A DNA stretch of 9,160 nucleotides from Clostridia bacterium (lineage in GTDB: Bacteria > Bacillota_A > Clostridia > Christensenellales > Aristaeellaceae): positions 1-9,160 of the forward strand of contig JAGBAU010000255.1 of NCBI GenBank assembly GCA_017938785.1. The letters are read 5' to 3'. Both the position numbers and the translations under genes were made by a program. The notes under the pieces are model-generated. The model was not told where the DNA came from and did no database searches. It was given only the letters and a program-made list of their open reading frames with translations. The number at the start of each line of letters is the position of its first letter. Within the stretch, counting starts at the first letter, position 1. Below are positions 2,489 to 8,889 of the stretch, piece after piece.

Positions 2489-3757
2489 TTGAAATACAAC
2501 GCAATTCTTTTTGATTTTGACGGCACCCTCACTGAATCCGGCATCGGCATCACCACCAGCGCAGCTTATGCATTCGAGCGGCTGGGTTTGCCTGTGCCCA
2601 GCCAGGAGGAGCTGGATACCTTTATCGGCCCGCCCCTGGTCACCTCCTTTATGAAATACGGCAACATGGACGAAGAGGGCGGCCGCAGGGCCACCGAACT
2701 GTTCCGTGAACGCTATTTCAGCATCGGCTGGAAGGAGAACCGCGTCTATGCCGGTATTGCTCCCCTGCTGAAGGAGCTGAAGCGGCAGGGCGTCCACATT
2801 GCCATTGCCAGCGCCAAGCCCGATGTGCTGGTGAACAAGATTGCCAAGCATTTCGGCATCTTCGATTACTTTGACAAGATCGTGGGCACCACCCTGGAAA
2901 CCACCCACGCCGACAAGAGCGACATCCTGCGCGCTGCGCTGCCGGAGAACTATGATCCTGCACGCTGCGCCATGGTGGGCGACCGTCTGTACGACATGGA
3001 AGCCGGCAAGAACCTGGGCCTGACCAGCATCGGCGTGCTCTACGGCTACGGTTCCCGCGAGGAATTGGAATCCTCCGGCGCAGACCTGATCGCTGAAACC
3101 GTAAGCGACCTGCGCGAAATCCTGCTGCCCGGCGTGAAGAAGGAACGCGGCCTGTTCATCACCTTCGAGGGCGCGGACGGCTGCGGTAAGTCCACCCAGA
3201 TGCAGAAGCTGGCCACCTACCTGAACGAGCGCGGCTATGAAACCGTGCTCACCCGCGAGCCCGGCGGCTGCGAAATCTCCGAGTGCATCCGCGACGTGGT
3301 TCTGGATATCCGCCACAAGGGCATGTCCAGCGAATGCGAGGCCCTGCTCTACGCCGCCAGCCGCGCCGAACACGTGCGCCAGGTGATCATTCCCGGCGTC
3401 GAAAGCGGAAAAATTGTGCTCTGCGACCGTTTTTTGGACTCAAGTTTCGCATATCAGGCCCGTGGGCGTGAACTTGGAGACGATTTTATACGTCAAATAA
3501 ATGCACCGGCGATGGCAATCGTCCCGGATCGCACGCTGCTCTTCGTGGGCGACCAGCAGGTCGTGCTCAAGCGGCTGCGCTCCGGCGAGAACCTAGACCG
3601 CATTGAGGTGGAGAAGGACGAATTCTTCCGCCGCGTCTACGAGGCTTTCGAGGAAATCCACGAGGCCAATCCCGAGCGCGTGCACAGGATCGATTCCAAC
3701 CGCACCATCGATGAAATCTTCGCAGACGTGTGCGAGGACATCAACGCGCTTCTGTAA
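2489..3757 (+). CDS. tmk: Fusion of HAD-family phosphatase (Gph/5'-nucleotidase-like) and thymidylate kinase
   Basis: This 422-residue protein has two complete domains. Residues 1-213 form an HAD subfamily IA hydrolase: FDFDGTLTES with Asp9 and Asp11 as nucleophile and acid/base, motif II Ser108 in IASAK, a Lys near 143 and motif IV VGDRLYD (163-169). It resembles the phosphoglycolate phosphatase/5'-nucleotidase group. Residues 221-422 form thymidylate kinase, which phosphorylates dTMP to dTDP for DNA synthesis: P-loop GADGCGKST (228-236), TREPGG (255-260), DRFLDSS (313-319), AYQARGR (321-327) and a lid/helix region, DRIEVEKDEFFRRVYEAF. The join at about 214-220 (PGVKKER) is very short. The start must be TTG 2489, because an in-frame TAG sits at 2483-2485 and the HAD motif begins eight residues in. 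The ribosome site is weak (GGG at 2475-2477). The next gene follows after 33 bases, so they are probably co-transcribed. An AT-rich, rare-codon patch covers the DRF motif. Kinase assignment is firm; the HAD substrate is unknown. Confidence 0.93.
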   Translation: MKYNAILFDFDGTLTESGIGITTSAAYAFERLGLPVPSQEELDTFIGPPLVTSFMKYGNMDEEGGRRATELFRERYFSIGWKENRVYAGIAPLLKELKRQGVHIAIASAKPDVLVNKIAKHFGIFDYFDKIVGTTLETTHADKSDILRAALPENYDPARCAMVGDRLYDMEAGKNLGLTSIGVLYGYGSREELESSGADLIAETVSDLREILLPGVKKERGLFITFEGADGCGKSTQMQKLATYLNERGYETVLTREPGGCEISECIRDVVLDIRHKGMSSECEALLYAASRAEHVRQVIIPGVESGKIVLCDRFLDSSFAYQARGRELGDDFIRQINAPAMAIVPDRTLLFVGDQQVVLKRLRSGENLDRIEVEKDEFFRRVYEAFEEIHEANPERVHRIDSNRTIDEIFADVCEDINALL

Positions 3758-3790
3758 TTCGTGCGATTTCCCGCCAAAGGAGTAAAGAAT

Positions 3791-6700
3791 ATGGCTTACG
3801 AAAATCTGTGTATGTACTGCTTCAAGGATCTGGGCGGCGATTCCATCTGCCCCCACTGCGGCAGGGACGCCCGCGCCGCGGTTCCCCAGATCCAGATGCT
3901 TCCGGGTACGCCCGTATACCGCGACCGCTTCCTGCTGGGCCGCGCCCTGGGCCAGGACGCCAGCGGCATCGTGTACACCGCGCTGGACACCAAGCGCGGC
4001 GGCACCATCCGCATCCGCGAATACCTGCCCCGCAACTGCGCCGAGAGACTGAACGACGGCACCGTTGTGCCCATCGCCGGCATGGAGGACGCCTTCGACG
4101 CCGGCATGCGCAAGCTGCGCGCCAGCGTGGACAGCGTGGAGGACCCCAAGAAGCGCCATTTCTATTTTGAAGAAAACGGCACCGCCTACATCGCCCAGCG
4201 CAAAAACGGCGGCGGCAGCAGCGCGCCCATGCGCGATTACGCCGACGATGAGGATGAAGCCGACCACAAGAAGGCCATCGCCCTTTACATCGCCATCGCG
4301 GCAGCCGTGGTGCTGGCCGTGGCCATCGGTTTGATCTGGTTCCTCAATTCCATGTCCGACCCGGATGATGTGACCCTGCCCAACACCCTGAGCACCACCT
4401 CCCCCGGCGCCACCTGGATGCCCGCCCAGACGCCCACCCCCACGCCCTACGCCACCGCAACCTTTGCGGCCCTGGTGGATCCGGAGCTTTCCTGGATGGA
4501 CTACACCTACAAGGGCGATGTGAACAACGATTACCAGCAGCAGGTGAACGCTTCCGCAACGAAGAAGCCCACCGTGGACACCAATCAGGATTACAACACC
4601 ATCAACAACAATTCCAACGCCAACAAGGTCAAGGAATTGCAGGAAACCCTGGTGAAGCTGGGCTGGCTGGATTACACGGGCCTCACCGGCAAGTACGACG
4701 CCGCCACCAAGAAGGCGGTGAAGGACTTCCAGAACTATGTAAACAACTACTGCTCCCCGGCAAAGAAGCTGGCTGTGGACGGCATCGCGGGCGAAAAGAC
4801 CCTGCAGTGGCTCTACAACGCCTCTGTATCCCTGGTCAAGCCCACGCCCACGCCCACTCCGCTGGTCACCGCCGCACCGGACGACAGCGTGATCAATGAA
4901 AACTCCCCCGCTGTGGATATCCTGGCGCTGCAGAACAAGCTGATCACCCTGGGCGTTATGGACTTCGGCACCGCCGACGGCAAGTACGGCGCCGCCACCG
5001 CCACGGCCGTGAAGAACTTCCAGATCCGCGTCAACCAGCTGCAGGGCTACACTGCGCTGGAAGTCACCGGCAAGGTGGACGGCCTGACCATGGCCTACCT
5101 CAACTACTACATCCAGTGGTGGGAAAACCAGCAGCAGGCCACCGCAACTCCCAGCGCCAAGCCCACTGCAACCGCAACCCTGGAGCCCCTGGTCACCCAG
5201 GCGCCCACCGACGTACCCACCAGCGTGCCCACCCAGGATCCCAACGCACCCATCGACGCTTCCTCCTCTCAGGATCGAATCACCTATGTGCAGGAGATGC
5301 TGGAAATCGTCGGCCTGCTCAAGTCCGGCGATGTGGACGGCGTGTACGGCTCCGGCACCGCCAATGCGGTCAAGACCTTCCAGAACTGGGTGAACGAGGT
5401 CCGCGGCGAGCAGACCCTGCAAATCAGCGGCGTATGCGACCAGCTGACCCGCGCTTACCTGGAATACTGCGTGCAGAACGGCATGACCGTTTCCCAGCCC
5501 ACCGCAGTTCCCACTGAGGTACCCACCGCCGTACCCACCCAGACGCCCACCGAGGTCCCCGCGCTTCCCACTGAGGAACCCCCGGTGTATGATCCCGGCG
5601 AGGGCGAGGGCGAAACCGGCGGCGGCGAAACCACCATCGACCCCTCCTCTCCCACCGAATCCATCAGCTTCGTGCAGGAAATGCTGGCCGAAATCGGCCT
5701 GCTGGGCTACGACCAGATCGACGGCCAGTACGGCGAGATGACCAAGCAGGCCATCCGCACCCTGCAGGAATTCGTGAACGCGCAGGGCGGCGAACAGCTG
5801 CAGGTTACCGGCATCTGCGATACCCGCACCCTGGACGCCCTGATGTACTGCTACGATTACGGCATCACCGTCGGCGGCCAGAACCAGCAGCCCGATCCTG
5901 AACCGGAACTGCCCGAGGCCACCGATGCTCCCGAGCAGCCCCAGCAAAGCGGCATCACCCCCGATTCCGCACCCGAAACCATCAGCTACATGCAGGAGAT
6001 GCTGGCCAGCGTCGGCCTGCTGGGCGAACACCAGGTGGACGGCGATTACGGCGCCAACACCAGGGAAGCCATCAGCGCCCTGCAGCAGTTTGTGAACGAT
6101 ACCTACGGCCAGGACATCCTGCCCGTGAACGGCATCTGCGATGAAAACACCCTGAAGGCCCTGCAGAAGTGCTACGATGAGGGCTGGAACGTGGTGGACC
6201 GCGGCGATGAACCCGAACCCACCCAGGAGCCCATCCCTGAAGCCACTGAGGAACCCACGCCCGAGCCCACCGATGCGCCCAACCTGGGTGTGATCGACAG
6301 CTTCTCCGTCTATGTATCCGGCATGGAGAGCAGCGGCGGGCTGATCGAATTGAACCCCGGCAAGTACGACGTGACCTGGAACGCAGACGGCCAGGTGGCA
6401 AGCTATTTCCTCTACCTCTTCGACGGCAACAAGAACCTGCTCAAGAGCGCAGAAAACACCGGCGCCACCGGCTTCACCATGGATACCTCCGCCATGAACC
6501 AGGGCGAGATCTATGAGCTGCGCGTGGGCGCGCTGCCCCTGAACGGCGGCCAGGGCGATATCCTGTGGCAGAGCGTTCAGATGATGCTGCCCGTGCAGGC
6601 CACCCCCGAACCCACCGCTGAACCCACGCCCGAGCCCACTGCCGCGCCCACCGTATCCGCGCCGGCCATCAACATCGGCTCCAGCGTATACCAGAAGGAT

Positions 6701-7279
6701 GGCGTGACCTACGTCAACGATTCCACCGTCATCTTCAGCTGGATGGCCGTCGGCGATGTGCAGCACTACACCGTGAACCTGGTCTATGAGGACGGCACCA
6801 CCTTCTCCCTGGGCACCACCGGCGATACCAGCAAAACCGTATCCGCCGACCAGCTGGCCCCGGGCCTCTACAAGCTCTACGTGGGCGCAACCCCCGTGGG
6901 CGGCAACGAGGAATCCACCATCTGGAGCGAGCTGCTGTTCGGCGTTCCCGCGCCGGAACCCACCGCAGCGCCTGAACCGGAGGTTCCCGATGTACCCGAT
7001 GAGCCCGAAGTGGAAGAGAGCGTCATCAGCTACATCGACGCAAGCAGCTCCGCCGAGGATATTCAGACCGTCCAGATGGCGCTCTACCAGCAGGGCCTGC
7101 TCAACGCCGACGGCATCCAGCCCGGCGTACTGGATGCAGGCACCCTGCAGGCGGTCGCCGCATTCCAGCAGAAGATGAACGATACCATGGGCGCGGGCCT
7201 GTATGTGATCGACCCCGCCGTGGACGCCTTCATCGACAACGGCACCCTGCAATATCTTCTCTACGGTACTGGACTTTAA
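3791..7279 (+). CDS. Zinc-ribbon/degenerate kinase N-lobe membrane protein with six peptidoglycan-binding and two Ig-like domains
   Basis: This 1162-residue protein starts at ATG 3791, which has AAAGGAG 8 bases upstream; GTG 3761 is in frame but lacks such a site. Layout: zinc ribbon with CMYC (7-10) and CPHC (20-23); residues about 38-137 match a Ser/Thr kinase N-lobe of the clostridial zinc-ribbon kinase type (FLLGRALGQDASGIVYTALD, IRIREYLP, F..G..KL, FEENGTAYI). The VAIK lysine is Arg75 (IRIREY), the glycine loop is altered (GQDASG), and the C-lobe with HRD and DFG is absent. An acidic linker follows, then one membrane helix (about 162-186). The outside part holds PG_binding_1-like domains at about 277-344, 373-444, 495-562, 625-690, 730-797 and 1087-1158, and Ig/FN3-like domains at 834-934 and 957-1051. 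Pro/Thr/Glu-rich linkers join them. Inference: a wall-binding membrane protein with a cytoplasmic pseudokinase remnant. Its role is unknown. It sits 33 bases behind tmk, probably in the same operon. Confidence 0.9.
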   Translation: MAYENLCMYCFKDLGGDSICPHCGRDARAAVPQIQMLPGTPVYRDRFLLGRALGQDASGIVYTALDTKRGGTIRIREYLPRNCAERLNDGTVVPIAGMEDAFDAGMRKLRASVDSVEDPKKRHFYFEENGTAYIAQRKNGGGSSAPMRDYADDEDEADHKKAIALYIAIAAAVVLAVAIGLIWFLNSMSDPDDVTLPNTLSTTSPGATWMPAQTPTPTPYATATFAALVDPELSWMDYTYKGDVNNDYQQQVNASATKKPTVDTNQDYNTINNNSNANKVKELQETLVKLGWLDYTGLTGKYDAATKKAVKDFQNYVNNYCSPAKKLAVDGIAGEKTLQWLYNASVSLVKPTPTPTPLVTAAPDDSVINENSPAVDILALQNKLITLGVMDFGTADGKYGAATATAVKNFQIRVNQLQGYTALEVTGKVDGLTMAYLNYYIQWWENQQQATATPSAKPTATATLEPLVTQAPTDVPTSVPTQDPNAPIDASSSQDRITYVQEMLEIVGLLKSGDVDGVYGSGTANAVKTFQNWVNEVRGEQTLQISGVCDQLTRAYLEYCVQNGMTVSQPTAVPTEVPTAVPTQTPTEVPALPTEEPPVYDPGEGEGETGGGETTIDPSSPTESISFVQEMLAEIGLLGYDQIDGQYGEMTKQAIRTLQEFVNAQGGEQLQVTGICDTRTLDALMYCYDYGITVGGQNQQPDPEPELPEATDAPEQPQQSGITPDSAPETISYMQEMLASVGLLGEHQVDGDYGANTREAISALQQFVNDTYGQDILPVNGICDENTLKALQKCYDEGWNVVDRGDEPEPTQEPIPEATEEPTPEPTDAPNLGVIDSFSVYVSGMESSGGLIELNPGKYDVTWNADGQVASYFLYLFDGNKNLLKSAENTGATGFTMDTSAMNQGEIYELRVGALPLNGGQGDILWQSVQMMLPVQATPEPTAEPTPEPTAAPTVSAPAINIGSSVYQKDGVTYVNDSTVIFSWMAVGDVQHYTVNLVYEDGTTFSLGTTGDTSKTVSADQLAPGLYKLYVGATPVGGNEESTIWSELLFGVPAPEPTAAPEPEVPDVPDEPEVEESVISYIDASSSAEDIQTVQMALYQQGLLNADGIQPGVLDAGTLQAVAAFQQKMNDTMGAGLYVIDPAVDAFIDNGTLQYLLYGTGL
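4619..6181 (+). repeat. Five successive peptidoglycan-binding-like repeats coded within the membrane protein
   Basis: Five diverged repeat units are coded at about 4619-4822, 4907-5122, 5273-5476, 5663-5860 and 5978-6181, each about 66-72 codons. The shared pattern is V..LQ..L...G.L....DG.YG..T..AV..FQ..VN, then a variable stretch, V.G..D..TL..L. Units 3, 4 and 5 are closest to each other: each starts with (I)(T/S)(Y/F)(V/M)QEML, keeps G(V/I)CD, and ends in a (Y/K)C-type helix. This suggests recent duplications among those three. A sixth, more distant unit lies at 7049-7264, beyond the Ig-like pair. Linkers between units are low-complexity (PTPTPTP, PTEVPTAVPT, EPTPEPT). Confidence 0.8.
6290..6943 (+). 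repeat. Duplicated Ig/FN3-like domain pair within the membrane protein
   Basis: Residues 834-934 (6290-6592) and 957-1051 (6659-6943) look like two copies of one beta-sandwich domain of about 95-100 residues. Each has a V.W/FSW strand (VTWNADG and FSWMAVGD), a central Y-rich strand (YFLYLFD and YTVNLVYED), and an ending of the type Y.L.VGA.P..GG....IW (907-926, 1027-1045). The two are separated by a PEPTAEPTPEPT linker. The fold is inferred from the strand pattern and could equally be another small beta-sandwich family. Confidence 0.6.
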
Positions 7280-7375: not shown

Positions 7376-7446
7376 TTACAGGCAACTTTGCTGTGCACAA
7401 ACGCGTCCAATGAATGCGATTCGACAGTCATACAAGGAGGAATTCT

Positions 7447-8889
7447 ATGCCGTTCTTTGAGACTTCCGTTCAGGAAATCAAGTACAAGGTACTCAAGAAG
7501 GTGGCCGAGCTGGCCTATGAAGACAAGCTGCTTCCGGAGAACACCATCGGTATCGCCGAGGAAATCATCCCTGAGGGCAAGCCCACCATGCGCTGCTGCA
7601 TCTACAAGGAGCGCGCCATCATCAACCAGCGCGTATCCGCAGCCATCGGCGGCGGCGGACACAGCAAACGCGCTGTGCGCGTGCTGCCCATCGCCTGCGA
7701 CGAATGTCCCATCGAAGGCATCCAGGTCACCCATTCCTGCCACGGCTGCATCGCCCGCTACTGCGTCAACACCTGCCCCAAAGGCGCCATCTCCATCGTG
7801 AACATGCGCGCGCAGATCGACAAGAGCAAGTGCGTGGAGTGCGGCCAGTGCCTCAACGCCTGCTCCTACTCCGCCATCATCAAGGTCACCCGCCCCTGCG
7901 TGGAGGCCTGCAAGACCCGCGCCATCGAAATCGACCAGGATACCCGCAAGGCCCTGATCAACGAGGAAAAGTGCGTATCCTGCGGCGCATGCGTGCACCA
8001 CTGCCCCTTCGGCGCCATCACCGATGAATCCTACATCCCGGAGATCATCAAGCTGATCCGCGAATCCGAAAACAATACGAAATACCGCGTGTACGCCGTA
8101 CTGGCCCCGGCGATTGCCACCCAGTATCCCAAGATTCCCGTCAGCCGCATCGTAAATGCCATCAGCAAGCTGGGCTTCTATTTCGTCACCGAAGCCGCAA
8201 TGGGTGCGGACCTGGCCGCCTGGGAGGAGGCGCAGGAGCTGGCCGAAAAGGGCTTCTTGACCAGCAGCTGCTGCCCCGCATTCGTAACCTTCGTCAAGCA
8301 GGAATTCCCGAACTTGAGCGACTATGTATCCCACACGCTCTCTCCCATGGCGCTGATTTCCAAGCGCCTGAAGGAAAAGGATCCCAGCTGCAAGGTGGTG
8401 TTCATCGGCCCCTGCATCGCCAAGAAGAGCGAAGTACTCAACACCCGCGCCGGCGAATATGTGGATTACACCATGACCTTTGAGGAAATGCAGGCCATGT
8501 TCGGTGCAAAGGACATCGATCCCACCCAGTGCGAAGAGGTTGAGCTGCTGAGCGTATCCTCCTTCGGCCGCGGCTTCGCCCGCTGCGGCGGCCTGGCGGA
8601 AGCCGTAAAGGAAGCGCTGCTGGAACAGGGCATTACCGACGAAATGTTCAAGCTGGATCCCATCGTGGGCGACGGCCTGGTGGAATGCAAGAAGCTGCTC
8701 ACCATCACCAAGAGCGGCAAGATGAAGAACAACTTCATCGAGGGTATGGCCTGCAAGGGCGGCTGCGTGGGCGGCCCCGCATGCCTGAGCCACAACCCCC
8801 GCGCCCTTGCCCAGCTGGAGCTGCACAAGAAGCAGGCCAAGGGTACCATCAGCTCCACCGTCAAGGAAAACACTTCCTCCGGTGACTGA
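7447..8889 (+). CDS. [FeFe] hydrogenase, group B-like, monomeric, with multiple [4Fe-4S] motifs
   Basis: This 480-residue cytoplasmic enzyme is predicted to interconvert protons and H2 using electrons from ferredoxin. The start is ATG 7447, with AGGAGG 6 bases upstream. The N-terminal half carries cysteine motifs C84xxC87, C98xxC101x4C106x3C110P, C129xxC132xxC135x3C139, C151x3C155 and C176xxC179xxC182x3C186P, enough for three or possibly four [4Fe-4S] clusters. The H-cluster signatures are L1 TSSCCPAF (272-279), L2 IGPCIAKKSE (320-329) and L3 EGMACKGGCVGGP (432-444). L2 as GPC.AKK.E and L3 ending GGP fit the group B (CpIII-like) class rather than group A (MPC..K..E). By family analogy Cys275 relays protons and Cys276, Cys323, Cys436 and Cys440 hold the cluster. 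The length is normal. No HydE, HydF or HydG maturases, nor electron-transfer partners, are in the window, so it looks like a single-gene unit. The physiological direction is not known. Confidence 0.92.
   Translation: MPFFETSVQEIKYKVLKKVAELAYEDKLLPENTIGIAEEIIPEGKPTMRCCIYKERAIINQRVSAAIGGGGHSKRAVRVLPIACDECPIEGIQVTHSCHGCIARYCVNTCPKGAISIVNMRAQIDKSKCVECGQCLNACSYSAIIKVTRPCVEACKTRAIEIDQDTRKALINEEKCVSCGACVHHCPFGAITDESYIPEIIKLIRESENNTKYRVYAVLAPAIATQYPKIPVSRIVNAISKLGFYFVTEAAMGADLAAWEEAQELAEKGFLTSSCCPAFVTFVKQEFPNLSDYVSHTLSPMALISKRLKEKDPSCKVVFIGPCIAKKSEVLNTRAGEYVDYTMTFEEMQAMFGAKDIDPTQCEEVELLSVSSFGRGFARCGGLAEAVKEALLEQGITDEMFKLDPIVGDGLVECKKLLTITKSGKMKNNFIEGMACKGGCVGGPACLSHNPRALAQLELHKKQAKGTISSTVKENTSSGD

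Follow-up and report, generated by a model that had tools for sequence, protein, structure and literature searches.

The window (the whole stretch of DNA analysed, 9,160 nt of contig JAGBAU010000255.1 in the Clostridia bacterium assembly GCA_017938785.1) encodes on its + strand a protein of 1162 amino acids (3791..7279) that we call a half-kinase wall protein. Its ATG at 3791 is preceded at a distance of 8 nt by AAAGGAG (3776-3782), and the first residue is shared in the alignment by 119 of 122 sequences, a count that takes in two entries for the window itself; a GTG upstream at 3761 is a less likely start. From the N-terminus, and throughout on the + strand, the protein comprises: a zinc ribbon (residues 1-28, 3791..3874) built on Cys7, Cys10, Cys20 and Cys23, for which Pfam offers only a weak match (DZR_2, E 0.11); a kinase N-lobe (residues 43-138, 3917..4204), matched by sequence and fold, that runs up to the hinge position; a variable acidic linker (residues 139-162, 4205..4276) where a C-lobe would start; a single membrane helix (approximately residues 163-185, 4277..4345), read by eye, with KK on its N-terminal side; a stalk; and an outer part made up of six PG_binding_1 repeats and a weakly matched Ig/fn3-like region. 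The repeats (PF01471, over cut-off in six stretches, E 2.6e-50) occupy residues 277-341 (4619..4813, Pfam), 376-417 (4916..5041, E 6.7e-11), 494-533 (5270..5389, E 3.7e-9), 627-684 (5669..5842, E 8.3e-11), 731-791 (5981..6163, E 4e-10) and, beyond the Ig/fn3-like domain (residues 965-1042, 6683..6916; Big_13 E 0.0023 and fn3 E 0.009, both below the Pfam cut-off), 1088-1130 (7052..7180, E 2.5e-5). The layout of kinase lobe, membrane helix and wall repeats that had been put forward in a preliminary description is thus present, with six PG_binding_1 stretches and a membrane helix read by eye. We infer a one-pass membrane protein with a cytoplasmic head, whose outer repeats would bind or lie in the cell wall. 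Rfam gave no match, and PHROGs gave none for the head.

Upstream on the same strand lies a gene for a HAD phosphatase fused to thymidylate kinase (TMK; 2489..3757, +; TIGR00041, 1.7e-49, together with HAD families). A part of AddB (3-1664, - strand; TIGR02773) and a gene for a small membrane protein (1730-2314, - strand; no NCBIfam match at 1e-5) precede it, and both recur near half-kinase genes in other loci. Downstream, a monomeric [FeFe] hydrogenase of group B1 (7414-8889, +; TIGR04105, 3.4e-158) follows the half-kinase gene, as it also does in L001-L003.

A kinase N-lobe without catalytic residues

The head has the fold of a kinase N-lobe, with strands 1-5 and helix C, and its nearest solved structure by both sequence and fold is PpkA (5hnv/5x1r), a full kinase domain of approximately 280 residues whose match to the half-kinase starts after the zinc ribbon; the earlier identification of a kinase N-lobe joined to a membrane helix is confirmed. 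Pfam finds neither a kinase domain (PF00069, at E up to 1) nor PASTA domains in the protein, and the protein is not a PASTA kinase by NF033483, which scores 13.2 bits against a cut-off of 450 and covers residues 147-204 only. Among the best 120 of 191 related proteins, PF00069 is found in none. Because the Pfam kinase model misses the half-kinase, kinome surveys using that model would miss such proteins.

The loss of catalytic residues and C-lobe, as the preliminary description had it, extends across the family. The glycine loop is a degenerate GQDASG (residues 54-59, 3950..3967, +) where intact relatives have GxGGFG; Arg76 (4016..4018, +) takes the place of the VAIK lysine; and helix C (residues 99-114, 4085..4132, +) is shorter by about six residues, the stretch with the conserved Glu being missing. 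Arginine occupies the lysine position in all 121 rows (the window, an identical match and 119 others), and a histidine is found there in L035, which came from the genome scan. At positions 76, 56, 57 and 58, the 35 rows labelled as intact Zn-ribbon kinases by motif scan and reading have K35, G35, G35 and F34/W1, against R11/H1, D10/E1/T1, A10/S2 and S9/G2/T1 in 12 half-kinases. After residue 138 of the window's half-kinase there is no HRD or DFG, linker and membrane helix coming instead, and a motif scan of the family loci L089-L092 found no HRD after the N-lobe. The 17 deeper members likewise all do without the lysine (arginine in 15, tyrosine in L164, leucine in L165), and the C-lobe is absent from every one of them by motif scan. 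Judged from its sequence, the head is incapable of catalysing phosphotransfer.

Spread, conservation and site of the gene

A scan of genome contigs gave 50 loci, of which 47 are members of the family, L046 is an intact Zn-ribbon kinase, and L049 and L050 match in the zinc ribbon only; with the 17 deeper members, the same architecture, which the preliminary description had proposed to seek in related genomes, is therefore found there repeatedly. Carriers are titled in their records as Clostridia, Clostridiales, Eubacteriales, Candidatus Pullichristensenella and Candidatus Faecivicinus, and many are from animal gut. In the family-level group of genome G002, matches at 1e-12 occur in 57 of 150 genomes, 25 of which belong to the 47 family loci; 20 places with weaker matches were typed as 17 half-kinases and 3 intact kinases, and at least 42 of the 150 genomes carry a half-kinase. 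A sample of the order yielded matches at 1e-3 in 42 of 297 genomes, with four places belonging to the main family and the typed loci being main-family members, the half-kinase of genome G044 (see below) or intact kinases. Matches at 1e-10 in a sample of the class were found in 39 of 391 genomes, and no further half-kinase was seen in the 29 additional loci there. Of ten deeper members scanned for PF01471, nine have it. Some relatives have other outer parts: P0100 (905 aa) and P0188 (746 aa) carry SH3 domains, P0100 ending in an NlpC/P60 domain (794-896), and P0169 (565 aa), which may stem from a chimeric contig, has a half-kinase-like head and, reported along with it, the domain of a phage minor tail protein (PF10145, 4.7e-43).

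No part of the protein is better conserved than the head. Measured against the window in 28-33 loci, mean identity is 77% for the zinc ribbon, 84% for the linker of residues 29-42 and 78% for the N-lobe, as against 43% for the membrane helix, 49% for the stalk, 34-55% for the repeats and Ig regions and, over 33 loci, 17% for the acidic linker of residues 139-162. The four cysteines of the ribbon are invariant in 121 of 121 aligned rows and in 48 of 48 rows of another alignment. Nei-Gojobori dN/dS of the N-lobe ranges from 0.017 to 0.337 and is lower than that of PG_binding_1 repeats 1-2 in all ten pairs compared, several of which come from one and the same genome; in the pair L016/L018, which differs by few changes, N-lobe and repeats are nearly tied and the stalk and Ig regions are slightly lower. 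Such strong purifying selection rules out a decaying pseudogene, and the word "remnant" used in the preliminary description does not fit a head that is the most conserved part of its protein. The strong conservation points to the half-kinase having been retained as a docking or regulatory piece.

The site of the gene is constant. A HAD and/or TMK match ends at most approximately 360 bp before the half-kinase gene on the same strand in all 46 assessable loci, L033 showing the TMK end only; L030 offers no more than 137 bp of upstream sequence. The TMK half was not found beside the half-kinase in nine loci. Among the deeper members, HAD and/or TMK is upstream in 16 of 17, the exception being L151. 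In 19 of 20 genomes lacking a half-kinase match, HAD-TMK is followed by a gene that we take to be mnmA-like from its motifs (L180 differs). This mnmA-like gene is absent from the window and was seen in 7 of 65 carrier loci, many of which are cut short: it lies at most 0.1 kb behind the half-kinase gene in L041, L042, L047 and L151 (the last without HAD-TMK upstream), approximately 0.9-1.1 kb beyond it in L152 and L164, and at another place in L149. The HAD-TMK/mnmA order in non-carriers, and the order HAD-TMK, half-kinase, mnmA-like in a few carriers, imply that the half-kinase gene was either inserted into an older HAD-TMK/mnmA pair or lost from it, and a site fixed over such divergence points to vertical descent.

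Kinship with zinc-ribbon kinases

The Zn-ribbon Ser/Thr kinases of Clostridia (for example P0123 and the kinase of G044 in L117) have in common with the half-kinase a zinc ribbon and an N-lobe with EYxP and EENxTAY, and P0123 and the G044 kinase likewise continue into a membrane helix and an outer part; unlike the half-kinase, they keep GxGGFG, VAIK, HRD, DFG and the C-lobe, all of which it has lost. The half-kinase thus presents a four-Cys ribbon joined to a homologous N-lobe, as in the Zn-ribbon kinase lineage. The ribbon and N-lobe motifs that the two share, and that PrkC rows lack, support at the level of sequence the view that Zn-ribbon kinases are the nearest full kinases, a kinship already held in the preliminary description; the trees are unrooted. 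The main half-kinase family forms one clade in all four trees; it falls among the Zn-ribbon kinases in two, which have no outgroup root, and in the tree with the 17 deeper rows, which has no outgroup and left out several main-family and kinase rows, the midpoint root splits it from all other rows.

Genome G044 encodes a second kind of half-kinase (L093, the same gene in L117) adjoining an intact Zn-ribbon kinase that has a related outer domain without a Pfam family. The two are 54% identical over zinc ribbon and N-lobe (77/142) and 34% identical over membrane helix and outer domain (145/427), and they lie in a run of genes (L117:6594-14746, - strand) for an FHA protein, a PP2C, a trypsin-FHA protein, the intact Zn-ribbon kinase, the half-kinase and a small protein without a Pfam match. 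Genomes G067 and G107 have the run from FHA to kinase, without the half-kinase. This arrangement, together with the identity between the sisters, suggests that one of two sister copies was deprived of its C-lobe. P0124 was the only protein of the second kind among 17 matches; PF00069 is carried by the other 16. As to the intact sister kinase, which the preliminary description had proposed to look for with peptidoglycan-binding domains, this is the one sister pair found, and Pfam recognises no family in the outer domain of its kinase.

Whether the two kinds of half-kinase had one origin depends on the tree. L093 joins the main family in two trees (support 100/99 and 95/99); it groups with G044-type kinases in the tree with catalytic columns removed (91/91) and in the tree with 17 deeper rows added (97/85), whose bootstrap had not settled. 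A single half-kinase clade is rejected neither with catalytic columns removed (p-AU 0.366) nor with deeper rows added (p-AU 0.376), and the grouping of L093 with G044-type kinases is not rejected in the 95/99 tree (p-AU 0.312). A second, independent origin of the G044 half-kinase is our guess.

Ten further loci (L121, L122, L130, L133, L134, L136, L140, L142, L143 and L147) encode two-lobed Zn-ribbon pseudokinases with a membrane helix and PASTA-like tails, in which the VAIK lysine is arginine and HRD and DFG are lost; this is a reading by eye for all but L121, in which two PASTA stretches are matched. They resemble the half-kinase in zinc ribbon, lysine-to-arginine change, membrane helix and wall-type outer domain, but L121 and its nine fellows keep the C-lobe (PF00069, E 1.2e-10 in L121). 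They form a separate branch in the 95/99 tree and in the deeper-row tree; a single clade of two-lobed pseudokinases and half-kinases is not rejected in the former (p-AU 0.356). These loci are possibly an undescribed family of pseudo-PASTA-kinases. In L148 an intact Zn-ribbon kinase is followed downstream, without a change of reading frame, by a second kinase-like match of this type that is degenerate, reading HGNIRPEN and having no DFG.

Possible partners and function

Among known systems, the PASTA kinases PrkC and PknB share with the half-kinase a cytoplasmic part of kinase fold, one membrane helix and a wall-related outer part, from which the half-kinase departs by having no C-lobe, no catalytic residues and PG_binding_1 in place of PASTA domains. 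EssB/YukC and MviN (ActPs3) share with it a membrane-tied, non-catalytic kinase fold with lost motifs; their pseudokinase domains, of 203 and 233 residues, are about twice the size of the half-kinase head, and the available part of PMC12599244, from which these comparisons are drawn, tabulates bacterial pseudokinase domains of approximately 200 residues or more and describes none with one lobe. Transmembrane pseudokinases of the EssB/YukC and MviN type are two-lobed, whereas the half-kinase has an N-lobe only. A one-lobe pseudokinase with wall repeats is not described among the matches listed from the open-access PMC literature (titles and abstract starts), in agreement with the preliminary description, which knew of no system of this build. 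By its sequence, the half-kinase would be a variant of the transmembrane pseudokinases, new in being one-lobed.

We propose that PG_binding_1 repeats hold the protein at the wall, and that the N-lobe, after loss of the C-lobe and catalytic residues, would have been kept as a protein-docking surface at the membrane, a rigid non-catalytic lobe offering a conserved face to a partner. Pairing would take place in response to the wall or be positioned by it, so that partner binding might couple wall state to signalling or put the partner in place, with PrkC the first candidate and, as the contact, the face of the N-lobe on which bacterial receptor kinases dimerise. A wall-tied non-catalytic docking module that pairs with another protein, PrkC being the likeliest single one, is on balance the probable reading; PrkC as the actual partner is a tentative suggestion. 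Counting against a docking role is the arginine at the lysine position in 15 of the 17 deeper members, which could mean another kept role. Of the preliminary description, then, the observation is confirmed and the interpretation is partly supported, namely in the kinship with Zn-ribbon kinases, the loss of catalytic residues and the layout; a scaffold or decoy that binds a kinase or its regulator under the control of wall binding is a hypothesis.

A PrkC-type kinase, whole or in part, is encoded in 46 of 47 carrier genomes. Eleven of the first 12 have a PF00069 kinase read as PrkC-type (the exception is G009, an assembly of 1.3 Mb in which PF00069 matches nothing), and in five of the 12 it is the only PF00069 match (E 1e-3); the other 35 all match NF033483, 33 over the cut-off, with pieces in G704 and G709. 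Among 14 control genomes, NF033483 matches 11, three of them over the cut-off. PASTA kinases are common in Firmicutes. Because they are so widespread, and because G012, the one non-carrier in the PF00069 scan, also has a PrkC-type kinase, the co-occurrence is weak evidence; no linkage of the half-kinase gene to prkC was seen. Full Zn-ribbon kinases were seen in one of the first 12 carrier genomes (G004) and in three of the other 35 (G691, G696 and G709), and G681 has related kinases whose match begins after the ribbon. With none seen in 42-43 of the 47, the usual partner, if it is a kinase, is not a Zn-ribbon one, and the Zn-ribbon sister kinase, to which the preliminary description had looked, is not supported as a general partner.

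Dimers of PknB are built on an Arg-Asp salt bridge, although the kinase domain of Staphylococcus aureus PknB is a monomer in solution (PMC3372466, seen in part), and two dimer modes are reported for PknB (PMC6333020, in part). All 12 half-kinase rows retain Arg46, which matches the PknB dimer arginine; at the position of the aspartate these rows have F7, P3, A1 and D1, against D in 11 of 11 PrkC rows. With the arginine kept and the aspartate mostly gone, a one-way pairing with PrkC would be possible and the known symmetric homodimer mostly would not, as far as the aligned residues tell. MviN forms a back-to-back dimer with constraints in its N-lobe (PMC12599244, in part).

The head might instead serve partners other than kinases, as a scaffold or assembly hub of the divisome, of wall synthesis or of a secretion machine, with no kinase involved, much as EssB/YukC, a transmembrane pseudokinase with a scaffolding role, serves type VII secretion (PMC12599244, in part). 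The zinc ribbon and the linker of residues 29-42 are as conserved as the lobe, and the SH3 and NlpC/P60 domains of some relatives connect the outer part with wall remodelling; no such machine was seen to be linked to the gene, however, where neighbours beyond HAD, TMK, AddB, the small membrane protein and the hydrogenase were clustered only, and we regard this alternative as somewhat unlikely. A more specific version of the docking proposal, in which the single lobe would be a wall-anchored trans regulator acting on the PrkC N-lobe as a second wall sensor, half-kinases having arisen at least twice from Zn-ribbon kinases, is likewise unlikely, and slightly more so. That the head is a mere cytoplasmic cap or homodimerising anchor of a wall protein without signalling would suit an outer part much longer than the head and the ability of PknB-type N-lobes to dimerise (PMC3372466, in part), but an inert cap would hardly need invariant FEEN and GQD in the most conserved part of the protein, and most half-kinase rows lack the aspartate through which the known homodimer makes contact; this we judge improbable. 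Still less probable is a head or linker that is a PrkC substrate or an FHA-bound readout, as distinct from a regulator of PrkC: PrkC-type kinases co-occur, and the pseudokinase tail of MviN is phosphorylated by PknB and recruits FhaA (PMC12599244, in part), yet the acidic linker is the least conserved region and has no fixed Ser/Thr. A split kinase completed by a C-lobe encoded elsewhere would explain why the half-kinase ends exactly at the hinge; it is extremely unlikely, since the VAIK lysine and the helix C glutamate are lost anyway and in five of 12 carriers, whose assemblies may be incomplete, the sole PF00069 match is PrkC-type, so that no separate C-lobe is seen there. A resemblance due to chance, or a kinase gene cut short by misassembly, would account for the silence of Pfam and has a negligible probability, given the match of sequence and N-lobe fold to PpkA, which rules out chance, 191 related proteins and the same layout in many assemblies.

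A one-lobe form that has been conserved would indicate what small portion of the kinase fold suffices for a regulatory role, and it can serve as a compact natural probe of the contacts that N-lobes make in wall-sensing kinases.
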